DNA of 35,217 bases from Leptolyngbya sp. GTDB taxonomy: Bacteria; Cyanobacteriota; Cyanobacteriia; Phormidesmidales; Phormidesmidaceae. A model generated the notes under the pieces. It was given only the letters and a program-made list of their open reading frames with translations, was not told the DNA's origin and did not search any database. The stretch is from assembly GCA_003249105.1 (NCBI GenBank), contig QBLT01000017.1, forward strand, positions 1-35,217. The letters are read 5' to 3'. Positions 4,302 to 32,155 of the stretch are shown one piece after another (the stretch's first letter is position 1; each line of letters starts with the position of its first letter). The position numbers were made by a program, and so were the translations under genes.

Positions 4302-4518
4302 GTCGGCTTTAGGTCTGATGCTATGGGCTGCGCTTTAGATTGTGCAGCTGTGGATAAGGTGCTGCGATCATCCATCAGTGAGCAGGTGGGGCTATGGGGC
4401 TGCGATCGCTTCGCCGGGCTGCTGAGCTGGCTCTAGATTGTAGGTAGTTGTGGCCTTTGGTCTGCTAAACCGTCGCCGTTGGAGATAAGCATTTAAGGTG
4501 TTGCCAGAGAACGTCGGG

Positions 4519-6354
4519 ATGACCCATTTTTTTGTCGAAACCAGCTGGCTGCTGCCGATGTACGGCCTGATTGGGGCCCTGCTGTCGCTGCCCTGGTCCA
4601 CGGGCTTGATTCGCCGCACCGGCCCTCGACCATCGGCCTATCTCAACATTGTGATGACCCTGGTGTCCTTTGTTCATGGGCTGATGGCGTTTCGCGGCAT
4701 TTGGAATCAGGGTCCGCAGGAGCTGCTGTTCTCCTGGTTTGACTTTGCCGATCTACACCTCACCCTGGCCCTCGACATTTCGGTGCTCAACCTGGGTGCC
4801 CTGGAGCTGATTACCGGCCTCAGTCTGCTGGCCCAGGTCTTTGCCCTCGGCTATTTAGAGAAAGACTGGGCCTTGGCTCGCTTTTATTCCCTGATGGGGG
4901 TTTTTGAAGCCGCTATGAGCGGGCTGGTGTTGAGTGGCTCGCTGTTTGTCTCCTACTCGCTGCTGGAGATGCTGACCCTGTCCACCTACCTGCTGGTGGG
5001 TTTCTGGTATGCCCAACCCCTGGTGGTGACCGCTGCCCGCGACGCCTTCTTGACTAAGCGCATTGGCGACGTGCTGCTGCTAATGGGAGTAGTTGCCCTG
5101 GCTTGTCTGGCGGGTAGCCTTAATTTCAACGACTTATACGAGTGGGTCAAGGTAGAAAATCTGCCCCCGGCCATGGCCACTCTCCTGGGGCTGGCGCTGA
5201 TCGCTGGGCCGATTGGTAAATGCGCCCAGTTTCCCCTCCACCTGTGGCTCGATGAAGCCATGGAAGGCCCAAACCCAGCCTCGATTTTGCGGAACTCAGT
5301 GGTGGTGACCTGCGGTGCCTACATTCTGATTCGCCTACAGCCGATTGTGGTGCTGTCGCCGATCGCCCTGGGCACGCTGGTGGTGCTGGGTACGGTGACG
5401 GCTCTGGGTGGGTCTTTGGTTGCCCTGGCCCAGATCGATCTAAAGCGCACGTTTTCCTACTCCACCAGTGCCTACCTAGGGCTGGTGTTTATTGCCGTTG
5501 GCACGACCTGGCCGGGGGTGGCGCTGATTTTGCTGCTCACCCACGCCGTGTCTAAGGCGCTAATCTTCATGGCTGTGGGGTCGATCATTACGACCACCAA
5601 CTGCCAAACCCTCACAGAACTGGGCGGATTGGGGAGAAAAATGCCGGCGACTACCCTGGCGTTTGTGACCGGCGCTCTGGGGATGGTCGGCGTGGTGCCC
5701 CTGGGCTGCTTCTGGGGGTTGCGGATGGGGGCTGATTTTCTCAGTCGTGACTATCCGCTGCTGACGCTGGTGTTTCTGCTGGTCAACGGGCTCACCGCTC
5801 TTAACCTGACGCGGGTGTTTCGGCTGGTGTTTTTGGGGGCATCTCAGCCCAAAACCCGTCGCGCTCCAGAGGTGCCGTGGCAGATGGCGGTACCGATGAT
5901 CACCCTGTCGGTGATTACGCTGCTGCTGCCGCTGATCATGGGCAAGCTGCTGGTGTTGCCCCCTTGGCAGTACATCAATGTGCCGATCGCGTTGCTGACC
6001 CTGGCGTCGGGCTGGGTGGGCGTGGCGGTGGGGGCGACGGTGCCCCTGTCAAAATCGCTGGCGCGATCGCTCAATCGCCCCCTGCGCATTGCCCAAGACC
6101 TGCTGGCCTATGACTTCTATACCGAGCGCCTCTACGACAAAACTGTGGTGGCGGCGGTGTCTACCCTGGCCCGGTTTAGCAGCTGGTTTGACCAGTACGT
6201 GGTCGATGGCCTGGTCAACGGGGTAGGCTTGGCCTCGCTATTTGGCGGTGAGGGGCTTAAGTACAGCGCCTCGGGCCAGTCGCAGCTCTACCTGCTGACC
6301 ATCTTTGCCGGGGTGGGGCTGATCGGAATTTTCATGACCTGGACGCTTTGGTAA
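4519..6354 (+). CDS. ndhF3: NDH-1MS subunit NdhF3 (inducible CO2 uptake)
   Basis: The protein has 611 residues and is an NdhF/NuoL-type antiporter-like membrane subunit with many transmembrane helices. Family segments include FVETSWLLPMYGLIGALLSL at the start, GPIGKCAQFPLHLWLDEAMEG (lysine and histidines of the proton channel) and HAVSKALIFMAVGSI. Together with NdhD3 and CupA it forms the distal arm of the inducible NDH-1MS complex, which hydrates CO2 to bicarbonate at the thylakoid membrane using redox-driven proton pumping. The short RRTGPRP motif near residue 40 fits the NdhF3 type rather than respiratory NdhF1. I prefer ATG 4519, which matches the usual start of NdhF3; a GTG at 4498 in the same frame has GGAG 13 bases upstream and cannot be excluded. 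It is the first gene of the operon. Confidence 0.94.
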   Translation: MTHFFVETSWLLPMYGLIGALLSLPWSTGLIRRTGPRPSAYLNIVMTLVSFVHGLMAFRGIWNQGPQELLFSWFDFADLHLTLALDISVLNLGALELITGLSLLAQVFALGYLEKDWALARFYSLMGVFEAAMSGLVLSGSLFVSYSLLEMLTLSTYLLVGFWYAQPLVVTAARDAFLTKRIGDVLLLMGVVALACLAGSLNFNDLYEWVKVENLPPAMATLLGLALIAGPIGKCAQFPLHLWLDEAMEGPNPASILRNSVVVTCGAYILIRLQPIVVLSPIALGTLVVLGTVTALGGSLVALAQIDLKRTFSYSTSAYLGLVFIAVGTTWPGVALILLLTHAVSKALIFMAVGSIITTTNCQTLTELGGLGRKMPATTLAFVTGALGMVGVVPLGCFWGLRMGADFLSRDYPLLTLVFLLVNGLTALNLTRVFRLVFLGASQPKTRRAPEVPWQMAVPMITLSVITLLLPLIMGKLLVLPPWQYINVPIALLTLASGWVGVAVGATVPLSKSLARSLNRPLRIAQDLLAYDFYTERLYDKTVVAAVSTLARFSSWFDQYVVDGLVNGVGLASLFGGEGLKYSASGQSQLYLLTIFAGVGLIGIFMTWTLW

Positions 6355-6363
6355 CGGTTGGCG

Positions 6364-7989
6364 ATGCTGAGTGCACTGATTTTAATTCCGCTGGTGGCGG
6401 CCCTGGTGCTGATTCTGTGGCCGGGCAAGCTAGAGGCGCAAACTGCTAAAGTCGTGAGCGGTATTGGTTTGGCCCTCACCCTGGCTTTGATCGGCTTTTT
6501 GGCCAGCCGCTTTGAGCTGGCCACGCCGGGATTCCAGTTTGAGGAACTGCTGCCCTGGGTCGAGCCCCTGGGGTTAAGCTATCGCCTGGGCCTCGACGGG
6601 CTGTCGCTGCCGCTGCTGGCGGTGAATAGCCTGCTGAGCCTGGTGGCGATCTACATCAGCGAACCCACTCTGCACCGCACGCGGCTCTACTACGTGCTGC
6701 TGCTGGTGATCAACAGCGCCGTGGCTGGGGCGTTTTTGGCGGCTAACCTGCTGCTGTTCTTTATCTTTTACGAGTTAGAGCTGATTCCGCTGTACCTGCT
6801 GATTGCCATCTGGGGCGGGTCGCGGCGGGGCTACGCGGCTACCAAGTTTTTGATCTACACCGCCCTGTCGGGGGTGCTGATTTTAGGGGCCTTTTTGGGC
6901 CTGGTGTGGCTGTCGGGCAACACCAGCTTTGACTACGACAGCGGTTTAGCAGCAGCCCTACCCCTGGCCCAGCAGGTTTCTCTACTGGTGGCGCTGCTGA
7001 TCGGCTTTGGCATCAAGGTGCCGCTGTTTCCATTCCACACCTGGCTGCCCGATGCCCACGTGGAGGCGTCAACGCCAGTGTCAGTACTGCTGGCGGGGGT
7101 GCTGCTGAAGCTGGGCACCTACGGCGTGGTGCGCTTTGGCCTGGGTCTGCTGCCGGACGCCTGGATGGCTCTGGCCCCCTGGCTGGCGACCTGGGCCGTG
7201 ATCAGCGTGCTCTATGGGTCGCTGGCGGCGATCGCTCAAACCGACATGAAAAAAATGGTCGCCTACAGCTCCATCGGCCACATGGGCTACGTGCTGCTGG
7301 CGGCGGCGGCCTCCACCCCAGTGAGTATCGTAGCGACGGTATTTCAAATGATTAGCCACGGGCTGATTTCGGCGCTGCTGTTTTTGCTGGTGGGGGTGGT
7401 GTACAAGGCCACGGGCACCCGCGACATGACCGTGCTGCGCGGTCTGCTCAATCCCGAGCGGGGTTTGCCCTTTGTGGGGTCGATGATGATCCTGGGGGTG
7501 ATGGCCAGCGCCGGTATTCCCGGTATGGTGGGATTTATTTCTGAGTTTCTGGTGTTTCGCGGCAGCTTCTTGATCTTTCCGGTGCAGACGCTGCTGTGCA
7601 TGGTGGGCTCGGGCCTGACGGCGGTGTATTTTTTGCTGATGGTGAACCGGGTCTTCTTTGGCCGACTGGCGATCGCACCCCCTACCGTCGCGCCCCAGCT
7701 CGATATTGAGCTGCCCTCGGTGACCTGGCGCGATCGCGCCCCCGCCTTGGGCCTGGCCGTGCTGATTATCGCCTTTGGGCTACAGCCCAACTGGCTGGCC
7801 CGCTGGAGCGAGAACGTCACCCTGGCACTGCACCAGCCCTACCAAGGCTTCGTGCAGGCCAGAACCCAGTTTGCCCCCACAGCCCTACCCGCCGTGGCCG
7901 ATACTCGCTTGGTTAATCCGGCTCTAGCCCTGCCAATTCCCGCTTCCCCTGTCTTTGCAGACCCCAGTGCTGAGATCTCCCTGCCATGA
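6364..7989 (+). CDS. ndhD3: NDH-1MS subunit NdhD3
   Basis: The protein has 541 residues and is an NdhD/NuoM-type antiporter-like subunit with about 14 membrane helices. Diagnostic stretches are FFIFYELELIPLYLLIAIWG (conserved glutamate and charged residues), FGIKVPLFPFHTWLPDAHVE (key lysine and histidine) and KKMVAYSSIGHMGYV. The pairing with ndhF3 and cupA identifies it as the NdhD3 form of the high-affinity CO2-uptake complex. It begins 9 bases after ndhF3. I choose ATG 6364 (MLSALILIPL) over an in-frame TTG at 6358 because it fits the family start. Its stop overlaps the cupA start in ATGA, which implies translational coupling. The last 50 residues after the final helix are a Pro/Ala-rich tail. 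Confidence 0.95.
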   Translation: MLSALILIPLVAALVLILWPGKLEAQTAKVVSGIGLALTLALIGFLASRFELATPGFQFEELLPWVEPLGLSYRLGLDGLSLPLLAVNSLLSLVAIYISEPTLHRTRLYYVLLLVINSAVAGAFLAANLLLFFIFYELELIPLYLLIAIWGGSRRGYAATKFLIYTALSGVLILGAFLGLVWLSGNTSFDYDSGLAAALPLAQQVSLLVALLIGFGIKVPLFPFHTWLPDAHVEASTPVSVLLAGVLLKLGTYGVVRFGLGLLPDAWMALAPWLATWAVISVLYGSLAAIAQTDMKKMVAYSSIGHMGYVLLAAAASTPVSIVATVFQMISHGLISALLFLLVGVVYKATGTRDMTVLRGLLNPERGLPFVGSMMILGVMASAGIPGMVGFISEFLVFRGSFLIFPVQTLLCMVGSGLTAVYFLLMVNRVFFGRLAIAPPTVAPQLDIELPSVTWRDRAPALGLAVLIIAFGLQPNWLARWSENVTLALHQPYQGFVQARTQFAPTALPAVADTRLVNPALALPIPASPVFADPSAEISLP

Positions 7990-9122
7990 CCAAAACCCTG
8001 CCCCTGGCCAAATCTAACCCCCACCCCCTAGAGCCCTTTATTCAAAAGCTGCTGAAGGCCGAGGCGCTGCTGCCCGACTCCGAGAGCAACGTGCTCGAGG
8101 TGGTGGGCATTCTCAAGAGCTACGGGGTAGTGCTCGATGCCTACTCCAAGAACCTGATCTACATCGCTGACCATCAGTTCTTGGTGCTATTTCCCTTTTT
8201 CAAATATTTCAACGGTAAGGTGACCCTGCCCCAGCTGCTGCGCCACTGGTGGCACGATCGCATTAACTTTGAGTACGCCGAATACTGCATGAAAACCATG
8301 CTCTGGCACGGCGGCGGCAAAATGGACGAATACCTCGACAGCGACGACTTTTTGCAGCACTGCCAGGCCGCCGTTGCCGCCAAGATCAAAACCAATCTAC
8401 CGATTCGAGCGCTGAACGGTCTGTTCCCCGACTTTTTGCCCGAGCAGGTGCGTCAGCTCGCCTACTACAGTGCCCTAGGCCAGTTCTGGCGGGTGATGAG
8501 CGATCTGTTTATCGACCTATCCGACGCCTACGATGCGGGCAAGGTGCAGACTATTCCCCAGGTGGTGGCCTTCATCAAAGCAGGGTTGGTGGCGGCGGCG
8601 GCAAACCCCATCAGCTATGCCGTCGAAATCAACGGCACCAGCTACGAGCTGCTGCCCAAGTCCGCTGGGCTGACATTTTTGATGGATGTGGCGGTACCCT
8701 ACGTGGAGGCAGTATTCTTTCGCGGCACGCCGTTTTTGGGCACAGTTTCCTACAATGCTCAGGCTAACCAAATCTCTGCCGACCAGGGCCGCTTTGACTA
8801 TGGCGCGCTCTATGCCGACCCCCTACCCATTGGCGGGGCGGGCATTCCTCCTACGCTGCTCATGCAGGATATGCGCCACTACCTGCCCGACTATCTGACA
8901 GCCTTCTACCAATCCAGCGGTCGGGGGCTCGACGATGTGCGAGTCAAGATCTGCCAGAGCTTCCAAAAATCGATGTTTTGCGTCACCAGTGCCTCGCTGC
9001 AAGGCTTGCTGCCCCACCCTGCCGACACCCAAGATCCCCGCGAGCAAGCTGCTAATCACACCTTCCTCTCCGGGTGGATGGATCGCCTAGCGACTTCCCG
9101 ACTGGATGTGGTACAGCTCTGA
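7986..9122 (+). CDS. cupA: CO2 hydration protein CupA (ChpY)
   Basis: The protein has 378 residues and belongs to the ChpX/ChpY (CupA/CupB) family found only in cyanobacteria. It has no membrane helices. The most conserved-looking part is the stretch around residues 77-105, with HWWHDRINFEYAEYCMKTM and then LWHGGG, rich in His and Glu that could bind a metal; published NDH-1MS structures place a zinc-dependent CO2 hydration site in CupA. The protein caps the NdhD3/NdhF3 arm and converts CO2 to bicarbonate directionally. Because it sits with ndhF3-ndhD3 it is CupA rather than CupB, which goes with ndhF4-ndhD4. Its ATG lies inside the ndhD3 stop (ATGA overlap). No cupS gene follows; the next gene is on the other strand. 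Confidence 0.93.
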   Translation: MTKTLPLAKSNPHPLEPFIQKLLKAEALLPDSESNVLEVVGILKSYGVVLDAYSKNLIYIADHQFLVLFPFFKYFNGKVTLPQLLRHWWHDRINFEYAEYCMKTMLWHGGGKMDEYLDSDDFLQHCQAAVAAKIKTNLPIRALNGLFPDFLPEQVRQLAYYSALGQFWRVMSDLFIDLSDAYDAGKVQTIPQVVAFIKAGLVAAAANPISYAVEINGTSYELLPKSAGLTFLMDVAVPYVEAVFFRGTPFLGTVSYNAQANQISADQGRFDYGALYADPLPIGGAGIPPTLLMQDMRHYLPDYLTAFYQSSGRGLDDVRVKICQSFQKSMFCVTSASLQGLLPHPADTQDPREQAANHTFLSGWMDRLATSRLDVVQL

Positions 9123-10864: not shown

Positions 10865-11392
10865 ATGGCTGATTTTTACGTAAGCTGGGACGATTACCAC
10901 CGAGATATTGAAAAGCTAGCGATTCAAATCTACGAGTCGGGCTGGGAATTCAACCAGATTGTCTGCCTCGCCAAGGGGGGGCTGCGCATTGGCGACACCC
11001 TCTGTCGGCTGTTCGATGTGCCCCTGGCAATTTTGTCCACGGCCTCCTACGGCGGGGCCGATGGTCGCACCCGCGGGTCGATTACCTTCTCCCGCGATCT
11101 GAGTATGACCACCCCCAGCCTGGGCAGCCAGGTGCTAATCGTCGATGACCTAGTCGATTCAGGCTACAGCCTGAAGAAATCCCTAGCCTGGCTGCACCAC
11201 AAATATGGTTTCTATATTGAAGATGTGCGGACGGCGGTGCTCTGGTACAAGGCCGAGTCGATCATTAAACCTGACTACCACGTAGTCTATCTGCCCGACA
11301 ACCCCTGGATTCACCAGCCCTTTGAACGCTACGAAACCATGACCCCCGCCGAGCTAGCGGCTAGTTATCAGCCTCAGCCGGAACCGGCGTAG
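10865..11392 (+). CDS. Phosphoribosyltransferase (purine PRTase-like)
   Basis: The protein has 175 residues and a type I phosphoribosyltransferase fold. The PRPP-binding motif is QVLIVDDLVDSGYSLKKS at about residues 95-112, with the two acidic residues and the Ser/Gly loop. An upstream CLAKGGLRIGDTLCRLF resembles the region before the flexible hood in hypoxanthine/xanthine-guanine enzymes. The family transfers ribose-5-phosphate from PRPP to a nucleobase in salvage; the base is not certain. The start is decided by the ribosome binding site: AAAGGAGG ends at 10858, so an ATG at 10859 has no spacing, whereas ATG 10865 has six bases. The 3' end overlaps the convergent TPR gene by 32 bases. A regulatory PRTase role is possible but nothing here shows it. 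Confidence 0.88.
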   Translation: MADFYVSWDDYHRDIEKLAIQIYESGWEFNQIVCLAKGGLRIGDTLCRLFDVPLAILSTASYGGADGRTRGSITFSRDLSMTTPSLGSQVLIVDDLVDSGYSLKKSLAWLHHKYGFYIEDVRTAVLWYKAESIIKPDYHVVYLPDNPWIHQPFERYETMTPAELAASYQPQPEPA

Positions 11393-12539
11393 CGGGTTGA
11401 GTCGGGGCAAGCTGGGCCGGGGCTGCCGAGGCTGCCGGAGGGCCGTAGAGGCGCTGGTAGCCCCAATACCCCCCCAGCAGGGTCACTAGGGTGAAAGAAA
11501 TAATGCCCCCCGTGCGGCACAGCCCGTGAATGGCTCTAGAGGCGCGCAGGGCGCTGAGGTAGTCTCCCTGCTGGTAGGCCTGGCGCAGGTTCATGGCACA
11601 GGCCAGGGCTGGAATCCCCAGAGGCGGAAAAATCACAAAGGCGGTCAGCAGCACCCGACGCCACCAGGCGGGCAGGCAGGGCTGCCCCTGAAACACTTTG
11701 TAATGGCCGCGCCACTCGACCACCGACTGATCTTGCACCTGACCCGTGAGGTCGAAGCTGTAAACGTCATCCATTTGCCAGCTAATGAGCAGGGCGCGAA
11801 TTTGATCGGGCAGGGTGAAGTAGTTGAGCCCTACCCCCACCGGGCGGTAAATCTGAATGCGGAGGCGATCGTCTTGGTACTCGGCCTCAACGATAATTCG
11901 TCTGAGTCCCAGCTCCGCCTGGAGGCGTTGGGAAAGGGTGCGATCGCGGTGCATCTGCTGAAAATGGTGCAGCTTCAGCCGCGCCTGATCGAGGTTGAGA
12001 TCGTTGCAGAGAGCCAGCTCCCAATCGTGGGCGGCGGCGGTGGGCTGATCCAGCTGCTCGTAGGTGTGGCCTCGGTGCAGGTAGGCCTCGGCCAGGTTGG
12101 GGTTGGCGGCGATGGCGGCATCAAAATCGGCCAGGGCAGCGGTGTAGTTTTGCTGTCGAAAGTGCAGTAGCCCCCGGTTGTAGTGAATGAGAGCATGGCC
12201 CGGCTGATGCTGCAGCGCCTGGTGCCAGTCGGCCAGGGCCAGGTTATCTCGCCCCTGCTGGCAATGGAGCAGGCCACGATTGCCGTAGGCGCGCACGCTG
12301 GCAGGATCAAGGTCGATCGCCTTCGAAAAATGCTCCAGCGCCGCCGTCGTATCCCCCCTTTGCCAGTGGGCCTTACCCAGCTCAATGTGGATGTCGGCTG
12401 GATAGGGCGAGTGATCTAGAACCTGGGGCAACAGCGTCAGCGCTACCTCAACGTTGCCCTTGCGTATTTGGGTTAAGGCCTGTCGGTGGCGATAGCGAGC
12501 CTGCTGACGACGTAACCAGGGAGTGAGGTAGAGTCCCAT
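11361..12539 (-). CDS. TPR protein with C-terminal CD225/dispanin-like membrane module
   Basis: The protein has about 392 residues. Residues 20-180 hold four to five tetratricopeptide repeats (for example AYGNRGLLHCQQGRDNLALA and AYLHRGHTYEQLDQPTAAAH), which bind protein partners. A middle domain (about 195-285) is not recognised. The C-terminal part has a hydrophobic segment with FPPLGIPALACAM, then LRQAYQQGDYLSALRASRA, then a second helix (IISFTLVTLLGG). That order matches the dispanin/CD225 family: a hairpin helix, a GDY-type basic linker with ASR/ASK, and a membrane helix. A short Ala/Pro tail ends the protein. The start is uncertain: ATG 12539, or an in-frame TTG at 12572 that adds 11 residues. 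The TPRs probably face the cytoplasm at a membrane. Function unknown. Confidence 0.8.
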   Translation of the reverse strand: MGLYLTPWLRRQQARYRHRQALTQIRKGNVEVALTLLPQVLDHSPYPADIHIELGKAHWQRGDTTAALEHFSKAIDLDPASVRAYGNRGLLHCQQGRDNLALADWHQALQHQPGHALIHYNRGLLHFRQQNYTAALADFDAAIAANPNLAEAYLHRGHTYEQLDQPTAAAHDWELALCNDLNLDQARLKLHHFQQMHRDRTLSQRLQAELGLRRIIVEAEYQDDRLRIQIYRPVGVGLNYFTLPDQIRALLISWQMDDVYSFDLTGQVQDQSVVEWRGHYKVFQGQPCLPAWWRRVLLTAFVIFPPLGIPALACAMNLRQAYQQGDYLSALRASRAIHGLCRTGGIISFTLVTLLGGYWGYQRLYGPPAASAAPAQLAPTQPATPVPAEADN

Positions 12540-12580
12540 AAACCTTGAGAATATGTGGTGGAGGAGAAGCAACCAACCCC

Positions 12581-12737: not shown

Positions 12738-13361
12738 CTATAGGGGCTCGCCGCCTTCACCCTGGGCGACCTTGAGAGCCACTGAGGCAACGGTCAGGGT
12801 GAGCCGCGCCTGCTCCAGACCTGACAGCGAGTCCCAGTCGGTCGCCGGAATTGCCCGCAGGTTAAGCTCTAAAATCTCGCCCCGGCCATCGCGCAGAGAG
12901 TAGGCCAGCGGGCGAGCCAGCACCGCCAGATCGTCAGCATTCCAGCCGGGCAGCACGTCATCTACGCACTGTACCAGCTGCTCGATCAGAGGTTGACCGC
13001 TGCGGGCCAGGGCTGCCGCAGAGCTGGCTAGACGGTGCAACAGATCGCCAGGGACGCGACTCTGAAACTGTCGCAGCTGCTCCAGCACCGGATTCACGGT
13101 CGGCTGAACCTCGAAGTCACCTATCTGGGTCGCCATCTGGGCCGATAGGACTTGCCATCCCGCCGCGATCGCCGCATTCAGCTCTCCACCGTCGAGGGCG
13201 TCAAACTCCGTCTCTAAGCTGGCCAGGTAGGCTTCGGCCTCGGGAGCCAGCGGTTGCCAGGGATACCCGGTTTCGGGGTTGAGAATACTGGCAAGCAAAT
13301 CGTGTTCAGTGGCCATGGCGGGCTCAGCGGCGGAGTTAGAAGACGGAGAGGACTGATTCAT
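12738..13361 (-). CDS. Unrecognised helical protein downstream of the FHA-CHAT gene
   Basis: The protein has 207 residues. It has a Ser/Asn-rich N-terminus, then mostly helical sequence with no membrane segment or signal peptide. Distinct stretches are LLASILNPETGYPWQPLAPE (about 22-41), VLEQLRQFQSRVPGDLLHRL, and PLAYSLRDGRGEILELNLRA near the C-terminus. I know no family for it. It lies 102 bases after the FHA-CHAT gene on the same strand, in the order phosphatase, FHA-CHAT, this gene, so it may be a partner or substrate of that system; this is inference from position. I choose ATG 13361; an in-frame TTG at 13394 would add 11 residues. Neither has a strong ribosome binding site. Confidence 0.7.
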   Translation of the reverse strand: MNQSSPSSNSAAEPAMATEHDLLASILNPETGYPWQPLAPEAEAYLASLETEFDALDGGELNAAIAAGWQVLSAQMATQIGDFEVQPTVNPVLEQLRQFQSRVPGDLLHRLASSAAALARSGQPLIEQLVQCVDDVLPGWNADDLAVLARPLAYSLRDGRGEILELNLRAIPATDWDSLSGLEQARLTLTVASVALKVAQGEGGEPL

Positions 13362-13463
13362 AGCGTTATCTACAGATGCACAAGAGGGTAACAAAGCCTG
13401 ATGACTGTGGATACAATGCGCGGCTGGGGGATTCCGTACGGGGCGGACATTTTCCTGGTTTCC

Positions 13464-15149
13464 CTAGCAGGGCGGGGACGATTTGGGGCTACCCTCAAGG
13501 GTAAATTCCATCAGTTCGCCCTCGGGACTGCCAAACCGAATCGCCGTGCCCAGGGTCAGCGGCACCTCGGCCCGGTGGACGTGGTGCCAGCCGTGGTTGT
13601 CAAAATAGTACGAGCCATAGCGAGAGCGATCGCGCAAATAATAGTAGGTCTCTTGCACCCCATTCTCAAACTGCGTGCGACAGAAAATTTCGGCATGCTG
13701 TCCCGAAACCCAGGGCTCCAAAATTACCAGGTCATTGTCGGGTAGTCGTCCCACCCGTAGGTAGCCGTCGTAGAGCCGCCACAGGCGACTCGGGGTGGCC
13801 AGGCAGCGCAGCACCACCGATTGGGTCATGCGCAGATCTTGCCCCGGCAGCTGGGTCACAGCCAGGGCCGCCTCGCGCAGCAGATGCCCCTCAAACTGGG
13901 GGTGCTGATACAGCACCGGCAGCGTCCAGGCCGGGTGGTTGAAGCGGTAGGCGGTCAGCAGGTGTTGTCGGGCCAAGGCCACCGCCTGGGCGACTGGCTG
14001 GCGCTCGGCTAAGCCCCGAGCCAGCACCTGAATAAAGCTCAGCGCCTCCTCGTCAGCAATGGAGTCGCGCATGGCCAACACCGCCGGTACTCCGTGGTGC
14101 AGCAGCACCTCCGCTAGACTGCTGCGGGGAATGACTTGCTGCTGTTGCAGGTCGGGCTGAGCCCCCCAACAGGTGTTAAACACCGCCAGCCGAATGCCGT
14201 TGTGAGCTAGCCCCTGGGCCAGCTCCGTGCCGCTGAGGCTGCCCCCCTGGCGCAAAAACAGCATGCCGCCATCCGGGGCAGGCACCCCATGGCCCGCGTA
14301 GAAGAACACGTTAAAGTAGCCAGTTTCTAAGGCCTTGAGCAGAGTTTTGGCATCGGGTTCGAGCAGGGTTTGCACCTGGCAAACCACCGGGCTTGCCCCC
14401 TGGTAGCTGAGGCGAGAGGCACTCAGCTCTAGCAACTGCTTCAAAGCCTCGGCTTCCTGAGGCAGTTGTAAGACCGGCTCAGTGCCGCCAGCATGAGTGC
14501 CGGGATCGTCCTGGCCCAGCACCAGCAGAATGCGCAGCGAGGTATCCAGTTCCGCTTCAGGCAGCGGTTCGACGGTGCTGGCGGTGCGGCTAAACAGCAC
14601 CTGCGGCCCCAGCGACAGGGCCGGGCAGCCGGGCTGGGGCTGCATAATTTCCCAGGGCAGGCTGATCAGTTCGGGGGGGCGCACCTCTAGCCGCAGCTTG
14701 AGCGGACGATTTTGGCCGATCGCCATGCCCAGACTGCGCTCTAGAGTCTGACGAATGGGGCCGTCAAACAGCCACTCCCACAGGCTCACCCCCAGCCCCT
14801 GCATCAGCCGCCCGGTATAGCCGGCGGCCTCTGCCGCCGGAGCGACCCGATCGAGCAGATCGTCGAGGTGAAACTGGGGCACGTAGGCCGAGGGCACGTG
14901 GGGTACCTGGGGCAGCCCCCGCAGCGAAAAAAACTGCTGCCAGCTCTCCCAGATTTGGGCCATTTGGCCATCCCAGAGGCGATCGTGGTGGGCATAGCCC
15001 CCCGGAAACGGACTCTCTAGAACCCAAATGGCATAGTGAGTGGAGTCCGCCTGGGTGAGGCGATCGATGGCAAGGCACAGGGTGAGGTCATCGGATGACG
15101 GCATAGGCAGGCCTAGGGCATAGGGCCGAGTAGATCGGGCTAGGGGCAT
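13464..15149 (-). CDS. CHAT caspase-like protease fused to a C-terminal FHA domain
   Basis: The protein has 561 residues. Residues about 20-425 are a CHAT domain: an N-terminal part with ELISLPWEIM, then the catalytic His287 in FYAGHG and Cys327 in FNTCWG, 40 residues apart, so the protease dyad is intact. Residues about 455-555 are an FHA domain: LRVGRLPDNDLVI, WVSGQHAEIF and DRSRYGSYYF. FHA domains bind phosphothreonine peptides; the Arg of the GR motif, the Ser and the His are present, but the usual Asn before Gly reads Tyr, so binding may be altered. The expected role is a protease positioned or switched by phosphoproteins. It starts 12 bases after the phosphatase stop. ATG 15149 is kept because of that spacing; ATG 15104 is an alternative. 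Confidence 0.88.
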   Translation of the reverse strand: MPLARSTRPYALGLPMPSSDDLTLCLAIDRLTQADSTHYAIWVLESPFPGGYAHHDRLWDGQMAQIWESWQQFFSLRGLPQVPHVPSAYVPQFHLDDLLDRVAPAAEAAGYTGRLMQGLGVSLWEWLFDGPIRQTLERSLGMAIGQNRPLKLRLEVRPPELISLPWEIMQPQPGCPALSLGPQVLFSRTASTVEPLPEAELDTSLRILLVLGQDDPGTHAGGTEPVLQLPQEAEALKQLLELSASRLSYQGASPVVCQVQTLLEPDAKTLLKALETGYFNVFFYAGHGVPAPDGGMLFLRQGGSLSGTELAQGLAHNGIRLAVFNTCWGAQPDLQQQQVIPRSSLAEVLLHHGVPAVLAMRDSIADEEALSFIQVLARGLAERQPVAQAVALARQHLLTAYRFNHPAWTLPVLYQHPQFEGHLLREAALAVTQLPGQDLRMTQSVVLRCLATPSRLWRLYDGYLRVGRLPDNDLVILEPWVSGQHAEIFCRTQFENGVQETYYYLRDRSRYGSYYFDNHGWHHVHRAEVPLTLGTAIRFGSPEGELMEFTLEGSPKSSPPC

Positions 15150-15161
15150 AGGGGAGGGTAG

Positions 15162-17528
15162 CTAGGGCGCACAGCGACCCGCTTGGGCCGGGGTCACTAG
15201 CTCCAGAAACGTAGCGGCCCCATAGAGCTGGCGAGTCTGCACCCAGCCCTCTTCCCCCGGAGCTAACAGGCGTTGATCTAAGTTAGGGGCGGTAGACGGG
15301 GCAGGAGGGGGTTGACTGGTTTCCTGCGGCTGTTGGTCAAGGGACTCGCCCGAGGGAATAGAGCAAACCCGCAGTCGCGCCCAGTCGACATTGTCGGCTG
15401 TGGTTTGGAGACTGACAACCCTGAGCACGCTACCCGTGGCTACTGCTCGGGTCTCGCCTACAGCCGCACTGAGGTCTGGCTGTGGGGCTAGCTGTAGCTC
15501 ACTGTTACCGACGGGGCTCAATGGCGGTGCAGACTGCCAGAACGAGCCGACAGCGACTTCAACAATGGCGGTCAGGGCGGCCTCTGGCAGCGGTCGCCCC
15601 GCCAGGGCAGGGAGAGGCCAGTCCTGGGCCAATGGCTGAAACGCAACCGGCGGCGAGGAAGTGCTGCTTAAGGCTATGCCCACACCCGTGAGCGTGGCGA
15701 TCACCACGCCAACGCCTCCCCAAAAAGGCACCCAGGGAAAGCCTGAATGCCTCGAACCAAGGGGTGATGCGGGGGCCACAAGCCGGGTTGATGGTGTGAC
15801 TGCTGAACCATCGGCCGGGGGAGACGCCTTAAAAACACTGGGAGAGGCAGCGTTTGCCTGCCGCAGAGAGCCCGCTGGCAGGGTCGGCAGCGGGCCTAGC
15901 TGGGGCATAAACCGCATCAGCCCCACGGTAACGTTATCGTGACCGTTGAGCCGATTCGCCTGCTGAATTAGGGCGGCGACAGCGGGACTGAGCGGACTAG
16001 CGGCAGTGGTTAGGGGCGCTACCAGGTGGGGCGCGAGGATTTCGACGCGATCGTAGTCGCTGAGACCGTCAGAGCAGAGCAGCAGAGTCGTTGGGTCGTC
16101 GAGCAGCAGATGCTGGACTGAGGGATAGAGCAGGTTTGAATCGCTGATGCCCAAGGCCTGGATGAGCGCCCCGCCACTGGGCAACTGGACAGCCTCTGAA
16201 TAGAGAGCGTAGCCCATTTGAGCTTCTCGGGAGGCAACGTCGTCGTCAACGGTGATTTGGTAGCAGGTGTAGGGGCTAATTCGGTAGGCGCGACTGTCGC
16301 CAATGTGGGCAATAGAAACGTAGGGGAAATGCACCAGGGCCACCACTACGGTGGTACCCATGCGGGCGCGGGCGGAGCGATTTTCGTCGTTGTTGCGGGC
16401 AGAGATAGCGTCGTTGGCCAAAATCAGGGCCTGCTTGAGGCGCTGGGCAATCGCCTCCGGAGACGGGTAAGCCTGCTGAGTGAGAGGCTCTAGCTCCTGC
16501 TGAAGCAGCTTGATGGCCGTTTGAGAGGCCACATTGCCCTGTTCATGGCCGCCAATGCCGTCGCACACCAGCAGCAGCGGCAGGTGTTCAACGCTGTCTG
16601 CTGACACCGGGAGGCGCTGCTGGCGGGGGTCTTTTTCGGGATAGCAGGCGTCTTCGTTGCGATCGCGGCTCGGCCCCTGATCGGTGTCCGCCACCCAGTC
16701 CACCGTCACTAGCAACCCCTGGGCCAGGGTATGAATAGCACCCTCCAGCTCGGCCACAAGCTCTTGATCAGACACTAACTTGCCCTCCCTAAGGGCCTTA
16801 CACAGCCAGCTGAGGTAGGGGCGCACCTGGGGTTGAGCCGTGGCCACCAGCGGCTGCCACCGCTGGCTGAGCTGGGCCAGGGTAGGGCTAGAATCGTCGG
16901 CTACCAGCGTGGTGAGCCGCAGCAGTGCACCATCCACCCGCAGGTCATCTTCTAAGAGGGTGGTGGCCATCTGCTCTTCCATCAGCGTCGGCCACAGAGC
17001 CGCTATCTGTCGCAGCCAGTTGAGCTGCTGCAACGGCGAGCCCTCCGACCACCGTTGAGCTAGGGAAGGTAGAATAGCCGCCTCAATTTTTCCCTGCCCA
17101 GGGGGCTGCCCTGGCTCGTCACCGGCCTGGGGATGCAGCCGCGTAGCGATGGGAGCACTGTCGAGGAGCAGCACCGTGGCCGCTAACCCAGTTTGTTCTG
17201 ACGTCAGGTAAGTGTAGGGACGAGGAATATGCTGGGCCAGGTGAAACAGCTTCAGGTAAGCCATCACCGAGGCCGGAATTTTCTCTAGGGGAGGCGGGGG
17301 GGTATCGGGCCGCGTGTCGAGCCAGAGTTGATGCTTCCCCTGGGTTCGTTTTTGCCCCTCCCCCCAGATCAAAAATCGCCCGGCGATCAGCGTGCCAGAG
17401 CGCCCCGTGAGCGGCCCGTCGCCAACGGCCAGCAAAAAACGGTATAGCAGGGGGGTTTGGCAGACCTTACAGTGGCTAGCAGGTGGGGTCGACACCGACC
17501 GGCAGGATGGGTTAGAGCACTGGATCAC
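15162..17528 (-). CDS. Membrane-anchored PP2C phosphatase with N-terminal zinc ribbon
   Basis: The protein has 788 residues. Residues 1-26 form a four-cysteine zinc ribbon (CSNPSC then CKVC). Residues about 35-245 resemble a degraded kinase-like domain (VMAYLKLFHLAQHIPRPYTY, LNWLRQIAALWPTL, LLEDDLRVDGALLRL) without visible catalytic motifs. Residues about 255-545 are a complete PPM/PP2C phosphatase: RNEDA, VCDGIGGHEQGNVAS, ARMGTTVVVAL, IAHIGDSRAYR, LLCSDGLSDY and GHDNVTVGLMRF, with all metal-binding Asp residues present. A single membrane helix (PFWGGVGVVIATLTGVGIAL) precedes a Ser/Pro-rich C-terminal part, probably outside the cytoplasm. It removes phosphate from Ser/Thr residues. It is the first gene of the cluster, with a GTG start at 17528, and would set the phosphorylation state read by the FHA domain encoded next. 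Confidence 0.9.
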   Translation of the reverse strand: MIQCSNPSCRSVSTPPASHCKVCQTPLLYRFLLAVGDGPLTGRSGTLIAGRFLIWGEGQKRTQGKHQLWLDTRPDTPPPPLEKIPASVMAYLKLFHLAQHIPRPYTYLTSEQTGLAATVLLLDSAPIATRLHPQAGDEPGQPPGQGKIEAAILPSLAQRWSEGSPLQQLNWLRQIAALWPTLMEEQMATTLLEDDLRVDGALLRLTTLVADDSSPTLAQLSQRWQPLVATAQPQVRPYLSWLCKALREGKLVSDQELVAELEGAIHTLAQGLLVTVDWVADTDQGPSRDRNEDACYPEKDPRQQRLPVSADSVEHLPLLLVCDGIGGHEQGNVASQTAIKLLQQELEPLTQQAYPSPEAIAQRLKQALILANDAISARNNDENRSARARMGTTVVVALVHFPYVSIAHIGDSRAYRISPYTCYQITVDDDVASREAQMGYALYSEAVQLPSGGALIQALGISDSNLLYPSVQHLLLDDPTTLLLCSDGLSDYDRVEILAPHLVAPLTTAASPLSPAVAALIQQANRLNGHDNVTVGLMRFMPQLGPLPTLPAGSLRQANAASPSVFKASPPADGSAVTPSTRLVAPASPLGSRHSGFPWVPFWGGVGVVIATLTGVGIALSSTSSPPVAFQPLAQDWPLPALAGRPLPEAALTAIVEVAVGSFWQSAPPLSPVGNSELQLAPQPDLSAAVGETRAVATGSVLRVVSLQTTADNVDWARLRVCSIPSGESLDQQPQETSQPPPAPSTAPNLDQRLLAPGEEGWVQTRQLYGAATFLELVTPAQAGRCAP

Positions 17529-31059: not shown

Positions 31060-32085
31060 TTAGGCCGCTCCAGCTTTCTTGGAAAACAGCACCAATACGG
31101 TCTTAAGAATTAGCTGAATATCGTAGGCCAGGCTCCAGTTCTTCTGGTAATCGAGATCCATGCGAATCACGTCTTCAAACTTTTTCACTGTGGAGCGCCC
31201 GTTGACCTGCCATTCACCGGTCATGCCCGGCTTCACGTCGAGGCGCTGCCATTCGGGCACCTTGTACTGCTCAATCTCATCGGGGGTGGGGGGCCGGGTG
31301 CCCACCAAGCTCATGTCGCCCCGCAGTACGTTCCAAAACTGGGGCAGTTCGTCCAGGCTGGTGCGGCGCAAAAAGCGGCCCACCTTGGTAATGCGGGGGT
31401 CGTTTTCGTTTTTGAACAGCGGCCCTTCCACTTCGTTTTTAACCTGGGCCTTAAGCGCTTCGGCATCGGTCACCATGGAGCGGAACTTCCAGATGTGGAA
31501 GCGCTTGCCCATCCAGGAACACCGCACCTGCTTAAAGAAAATCGGGCCGCCGTCTTCGAGCTTGATAGCGATCACAATGGGCACCGACAGCACGGCGGTT
31601 AGCACCAAGCCCACCAGCGCGCCGACAATATCCAGCAGGCGCTTGCCCTTGGAGGCTACTGAGGGATGGGTGGTCAACGCTACAAAGCGCATCTCGGGTT
31701 TGAGGGCAGGGCTTTCGGGCTCACCGACGATCGGTTCAAAGGTGAATAGCTGCTCTAGGTCAGTCAGGGCCAGCACCATGCGTACCTGCTCTTGCACCCC
31801 CCGCAGCACCATGACAATGCCCTTGGTGTGGCAGGTGCGGTAGCAGATCACCAGGGCTCCTAGGCCGCTGCTGTCGATGAATTGGGTCTGACTCAGATCA
31901 ATGATGATGGTTTCGGGGGCTGGCTGACTCAGGCAATGGCGTTTAACCTGTTGTTCAAACTCGACCGCCTCAACAACGGTTAAGGTGGTCGGCACGCTAA
32001 CGACTCGGGCGGTTTCTATCGCCTCACTGGAGGGCTGCTCTGCGACCACTTGTGGATCCTGATCTGGGGCAATGGATGAGGTCAT
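31060..32085 (-). CDS. STAS domain fused to polyprenyl-phosphate sugar transferase
   Basis: The protein has 341 residues. Residues about 25-120 are a STAS domain with the phosphorylatable serine in FIDSSGLGALVICYRTCHTK, as in anti-sigma-factor antagonists. After a linker, residues about 150-335 are a bacterial sugar transferase (WcaJ/RfbP type): one membrane helix (DIVGALVGLVLTAVLSVPIV), then GGPIFFKQVR, FHIWKFRSM, RFLRRTSLDELPQFWNVLRG, DMSLVGTRPP and KPGMTGEWQVNGRS. The enzyme starts exopolysaccharide or glycan assembly by moving a sugar-1-phosphate to undecaprenyl phosphate at the inner membrane. The STAS half suggests control by a phosphorylation-dependent partner switch. ATG 32085 is chosen, with AGGGA about 9 bases upstream; a TTG at 32115 lies further out. 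Confidence 0.9.
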   Translation of the reverse strand: MTSSIAPDQDPQVVAEQPSSEAIETARVVSVPTTLTVVEAVEFEQQVKRHCLSQPAPETIIIDLSQTQFIDSSGLGALVICYRTCHTKGIVMVLRGVQEQVRMVLALTDLEQLFTFEPIVGEPESPALKPEMRFVALTTHPSVASKGKRLLDIVGALVGLVLTAVLSVPIVIAIKLEDGGPIFFKQVRCSWMGKRFHIWKFRSMVTDAEALKAQVKNEVEGPLFKNENDPRITKVGRFLRRTSLDELPQFWNVLRGDMSLVGTRPPTPDEIEQYKVPEWQRLDVKPGMTGEWQVNGRSTVKKFEDVIRMDLDYQKNWSLAYDIQLILKTVLVLFSKKAGAA

Positions 32086-32155
32086 ACCGGCATCCCTGGT
32101 AATGGTTAGTAGCAATAGGTACTGTCAAGGTTCTCTCGACAATGTCCAAACTATA

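Follow-up and report, generated by a model that had tools for sequence, protein, structure and literature searches.

To our knowledge, few bacterial caspase-like proteases have a known dedicated substrate or partner. Recognition by the eukaryotic protease separase hinges on phosphorylation of the substrate and on a dedicated partner, and the enzyme works together with securin, a dedicated inhibitor-chaperone. In cyanobacteria, HetF of Anabaena is a CHAT protease which was reported to cleave the regulator PatU3, thereby influencing cell division and heterocyst differentiation (PMC12288457); its architecture comprises TPR and membrane segments (PMC8406250). CHAT proteases are also found in Craspase (type III-E CRISPR) and in further immune systems (PMC9729208).

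The DNA stretch analyzed here (35,217 nucleotides from Leptolyngbya sp., contig QBLT01000017.1; referred to as the window) harbours three consecutive minus-strand genes, encoding (i) a PP2C-type Ser/Thr phosphatase of 788 amino acids (15162..17528; ORF list, Pfam and NCBIfam profiles), (ii) a putative CHAT protease with FHA domain, CHAT-FHA (13464..15149; 561 amino acids from the first ATG; ORF, Pfam and homologue alignment), and (iii) a predicted all-helical protein of 207 residues without known family, the genomic partner of CHAT-FHA, which is named U207 here (12738..13361; the ORF spans 12738-13394, with the ATG at 13361 yielding 207 residues). This arrangement had been proposed by an earlier sequence-only reading, and all three reading frames were confirmed. 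The 12-base gap noted by that reading between the phosphatase and protease genes holds for the first ATG of the latter; however, the true start is probably Met16 at 15104 (546 amino acids), since homologues align from this residue, and the gap would then measure 57 bases. The near-obligate CHAT-FHA/U207 pair, usually located beside the phosphatase gene, suggests a hitherto undescribed protease-and-partner switch in cell regulation.

The CHAT domain (residues 120-406, 13932..14792, delimited by Pfam and structure comparison) matches PF12770 with E=1e-20 (74.4 bits vs a cut-off of 24), while the C-terminal FHA domain (residues 465-540, 13530..13757; G-R / S-x-x-H motif with GR 467-468, S482-x-x-H485 and S509-R-Y-G512) matches PF00498 with E=8e-9 (36.2 bits vs a cut-off of 20.7). 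Both profiles thus bear out the previously claimed domain fusion. Likewise, the supposedly intact dyad of the predicted catalytic residues His287 (codon 14289..14291) and Cys327 (codon 14169..14171) proved to be invariant in 132/132 distinct homologues. Residues 1-410 of the predicted model match TPR-CHAT (Z 23.0, rmsd 3.5, 303 aligned) and separase (Z 21.6, rmsd 3.6, 305 aligned), and the FHA part matches EmbR, GarA and other FHA domains (Z 14–16; GarA, Z 14.4, rmsd 2.3, 96 aligned). A caspase-like fold is hence supported at the level of the model, and by dyad, profile and predicted fold CHAT-FHA represents a candidate cysteine protease of the CHAT family. It is devoid of a strong hydrophobic segment, is encoded at a single-copy locus and retains ~50% identity across families.

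The nearest known analogue of CHAT-FHA/U207 is probably the HetF-PatU3 pair. HetF shares with CHAT-FHA the cyanobacterial origin, the regulatory context and a homologous catalytic domain (about 32-39% identity), but possesses TPR and membrane segments and no FHA domain. Against the HetF profile NF045509, CHAT-FHA scores 153.8 bits, through its CHAT part only (equivalog cut-off 1200), and the TPR and transmembrane C-terminal half of HetF is absent from CHAT-FHA, the C-terminus of which is formed by the FHA domain. Since both the score and the architecture test failed, CHAT-FHA is regarded as a paralogue of HetF rather than as HetF itself; a separate HetF-like gene is present in the genome from which the window stems. 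Craspase (TPR-CHAT/Csx29 with Csx30) resembles CHAT-FHA in combining the same protease fold with a dedicated small protein partner, but carries TPR in place of FHA; moreover, the CHAT-FHA locus is conserved and housekeeping-like, and no gRAMP/Cas7-11 is encoded in the window. Separase/securin is similar by the fold match given above, but is eukaryotic, and no resemblance of U207 to securin was detected. In the literature searched, the coverage of which excluded most subscription journals, no paper naming CHAT together with FHA was found, nor any on an FHA-bearing CHAT protein with U207 or on its association with PP2C or with the FHA-PrsW protein described below. CHAT proteases with dedicated partners are known already, whereas, as far as searched, the FHA-bearing version with U207 was not found to be described.

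Adjacency of these genes in relatives, on which the sequence-only reading had staked its proposal, is common rather than rare: U207 and CHAT-FHA adjoin in 119/148 genomes, and the best PP2C match adjoins CHAT-FHA in 105/137. The order PP2C, CHAT-FHA, U207 recurs in most of the 80 named loci from species-representative genomes, frequently in synteny with ndhM located further upstream. The closest named loci (97-98% identity) belong to Nodosilinea, Leptolyngbya and Phormidium strains, which places the source of the window in the Nodosilinea group. The three-gene arrangement is far beyond chance. Strong CHAT-FHA matches occur in nearly all 65 searched genomes of the window's order; in a few, a contig end or frameshift interrupts the match, and a few others gave only HetF-like or fragmentary hits.

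Profiles of CHAT-FHA and U207 were run against 291 cyanobacterial genomes, each at least 90% complete, and marginal matches were set aside, i.e., two HetF-like proteins (E about 1e-61 to 1e-67) and one weak U207 match (E 7e-4). CHAT-FHA was detected in 149 genomes and U207 in 149, with both present in 148 and neither in 141 (Fisher p = 1e-82, phylogeny being ignored), leaving one genome with CHAT-FHA alone and one with U207 alone. The former (G062) is a contig-edge artefact, its CHAT-FHA starting 133 bases from the contig end. In the latter (G098), a stretch of 48 residues matching the FHA end of the protease (L137:4799-4942, E=8e-5) is located between the PP2C and U207 genes and apparently represents a decayed CHAT-FHA copy. 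The two genes are non-adjacent in 29 of the 148 genomes, lying 0.55-3.9 Mb apart on one contig in 5 and on different contigs in 24. Both neighbourhoods were inspected in 19 of these 29; 18 were clearly flanked by other genes, and in case of G067 a contig break could account for the separation. Since the pair is kept in 29 genomes without adjacency, gene order alone does not explain the co-occurrence.

On an IleRS tree of 80 of these genomes, the CHAT-FHA and U207 traits require 10 and 9 changes, respectively, and differ only at G098, which points to several joint gains or losses; this event count is weakened by resting on a single-gene tree. Some of these joint gains or losses fall within well supported clades (G169 vs G227; G122 and G249 vs G280; G203 vs G119). 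Distances of U207 and CHAT-FHA show a partial correlation of 0.50 given IleRS (reached in 0/2000 permutations), of 0.51 given IleRS for unlinked pairs only and of 0.69 given NdhM distance, these controls being imperfect, since any noisy proxy of species distance leaves residual correlation; PP2C distances correlate with those of both proteins. U207 and CHAT-FHA are thus evolutionarily dependent, being kept or lost together whether linked or not, and the functional link between protease and 207-residue protein, originally read from gene order, gains support from this near-perfect co-occurrence even where the genes are far apart. Comparative genomics thereby names U207 as the near-constant companion of a cyanobacterial CHAT protease.

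As anticipated, U207 itself was not recognised by any Pfam or NCBIfam family. It is predicted to be all-helical (mean pLDDT 82.5), with the invariant residues D144, L145, R150, S180 and A192 and the signature DLxVxARPxAxxxR and WxxLSxxExAxxxL. A Foldseek search, in which only residues 99-207 were well covered, yielded no solved-structure match at E 0.001 or below, and the best VIA-align score, likewise with good coverage of residues 99-207 only, was Z 4.8 (rmsd 3.5, 79 aligned). No conserved Thr is present in the alignment of U207 homologues. U207 may be the dedicated substrate of CHAT-FHA or, nearly as likely, its inhibitor or adaptor. A conserved Arg157 at a helix end preceding a variable loop is weakly compatible with a cleavage site and to that extent speaks for a substrate. 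If, on the other hand, U207 were a securin-like inhibitor/chaperone or an adaptor, the true substrates would reside elsewhere in the proteome, an alternative that deserves serious weight while falling short of an even chance. The near one-to-one co-occurrence would be expected of an obligate subunit no less than of a substrate, TPR-CHAT and the securin-controlled separase are nearest to the CHAT fold, and U207 persists after the decay of CHAT-FHA in G098, where an inhibitor could remain harmlessly; however, the two genes are often unlinked, unlike those of many obligate subunits, and a joint structure prediction provided no interface score. The latter employed the read-through sequence merely as linker and yielded good folds of CHAT, FHA and U207. 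A natural read-through fusion of both proteins, considered in view of the single frame and the single intervening TAG in the window, was rejected, since relatives differ in frame as well as in number and kind of stops.

The phosphatase matches PF13672 (PP2C_2, E=4e-10, 40 bits vs a cut-off of 24) and, under the curated cut-off of the model, the NCBIfam Stp1_PP2C (E=3.5e-40), which together with the metal-binding residues delimits a catalytic domain at residues 282-540 (15909..16685). The catalytic motifs were rightly taken to be complete, N291-E-D293, D323-G, D487-G and D531-N being invariant in 34 homologues, and the assumed membrane location agrees with one hydrophobic segment at about 602-620. 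Four Cys are present in the N-terminus (residues 4-23), and the C-terminal region past the hydrophobic segment, possibly extracytoplasmic, contains two conserved Cys (722, 786). In most lineages, the gene directly upstream of CHAT-FHA encodes PP2C. One may nevertheless argue that phosphatase and protease are functionally unconnected, that they adjoin through inherited gene order next to ndhM, and that the FHA domain serves localisation instead of a phospho-switch. This is consistent with the occurrence of PP2C homologues in 237/291 genomes, many of them without CHAT-FHA, and with their location away from CHAT-FHA in several Oscillatoriales loci, but appears less likely than not overall: among the 105 genomes with adjoining genes are 15 in which U207 is encoded away from the protease, indicating that the pairing of PP2C and protease was kept through rearrangement. 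Since its family extends beyond the CHAT-FHA/U207 pair, PP2C is viewed as a common rather than an obligate component. Phospho-control of CHAT-FHA by the adjacent phosphatase is a plausible proposal.

The FHA domain bears on the same question. Its phosphate-binding residues are intact in most CHAT-FHA homologues, again arguing against a phosphatase without functional tie, and GR is kept in 111/130, a few of the remaining cases possibly being alignment errors. About 15% of homologues carry another residue in place of Arg468, which favours a mere localising role; these homologues retain Thr432 nonetheless, so that reading of phosphothreonine may not be universal. A presumed coupling of FHA-Arg loss to absence of PP2C was rejected, since 11/15 scorable non-Arg loci still possess PP2C. 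The linker between CHAT and FHA varies in sequence and length among homologues, and Thr432 (codon 13854..13856) is kept in 130/132, while the position aligned to it is Thr in 1/22 HetF paralogues (the alignment being loose there). Its conservation within an otherwise variable linker makes Thr432 a candidate phosphorylation site and offers one named residue for the suspected phospho-switch. A conserved Thr near an FHA domain on the same chain is reminiscent of the FHA autoregulation of GarA/OdhI; however, GarA has no protease, and self-binding of Thr432 in CHAT-FHA is a conjecture.

Chances appear about even that CHAT-FHA and its dedicated partner U207 constitute a cyanobacterial proteolytic switch under phospho-control, usually preceded by PP2C. 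A Ser/Thr kinase would write the phospho-mark and the adjacent PP2C erase it, and the FHA domain would dock the protease onto phosphothreonine, be it its own Thr432, the complex of U207 or another client. U207 and Thr432 would then extend the principle of HetF and PatU3 to many cyanobacterial lineages and to Ser/Thr phospho-signalling.

Many lineages other than the window's genus frequently encode, tail-to-tail with U207, another FHA protease that combines FHA (PF00498, E about 1e-16) with a PrsW membrane protease domain (PF13367, E about 1e-34; domain fusions at, e.g., L144:5521-6861, L141:3274-4677 and L177:3602-4969). The FHA motif residues of this FHA-PrsW are invariant in 16 sequences, its gene is located within 6 kb of U207 in 56/96 listed genomes having both, including 5 with U207 away from any CHAT-FHA gene (G098 and four others). 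An obligate fourth component was rejected: since FHA-PrsW is missing in the window's genus and occurs in genomes without CHAT-FHA, it is an associated rather than a defining component. In lineages with this neighbour of U207, two proteases, one soluble and one in the membrane, may be addressed by the same phospho-signal. A more specific version, in which Thr432 would be written by the kinase, erased by PP2C and read by the protein's own FHA domain, the signal freeing the protease onto U207 and elsewhere also directing FHA-PrsW to U207, seems improbable in its entirety. If true, it would constitute a two-protease phospho-cascade; we know of none described in bacteria.

The sequence-only reading had hinted at defence and regulated cell death, a frame that found no support. 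An anti-phage defence or regulated-death module could be suspected from the above-mentioned presence of CHAT proteases in Craspase and other immune systems and from TPR-CHAT being nearest to the CHAT model. However, CHAT-FHA is single-copy, with strong matches across nearly all genomes of the order and frequent synteny with ndhM, and is lost together with U207 rather than patchily swapped. A PADLOC-DB 2.0.0 scan of the three window proteins and one FHA-PrsW returned only TmtA (E=0.006, 12 bits), and no CRISPR effector gene is present among the annotated neighbours in the window. Conservation of the locus and lack of a convincing PADLOC match render a defence role very improbable; by analogy to the paralogue HetF, the role of CHAT-FHA/U207 is most likely regulatory (cell division, differentiation or stress).

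Further genes in the window include a minus-strand gene (11361-12572) for a TPR protein with C-terminal CD225/dispanin-like membrane domain (PF04505, 30.0 bits vs 27.1), which is kept adjoining U207 within the window's genus, and a fusion of STAS and bacterial sugar transferase domains (minus strand, 31060-32115). A CcmM-like protein containing four repeats that resemble the RuBisCO small subunit (minus strand, 918-2900) as well as two proton-antiporter NDH-1 subunits and ChpXY (plus strand, 4498-9122) form a carbon-concentration gene neighbourhood.
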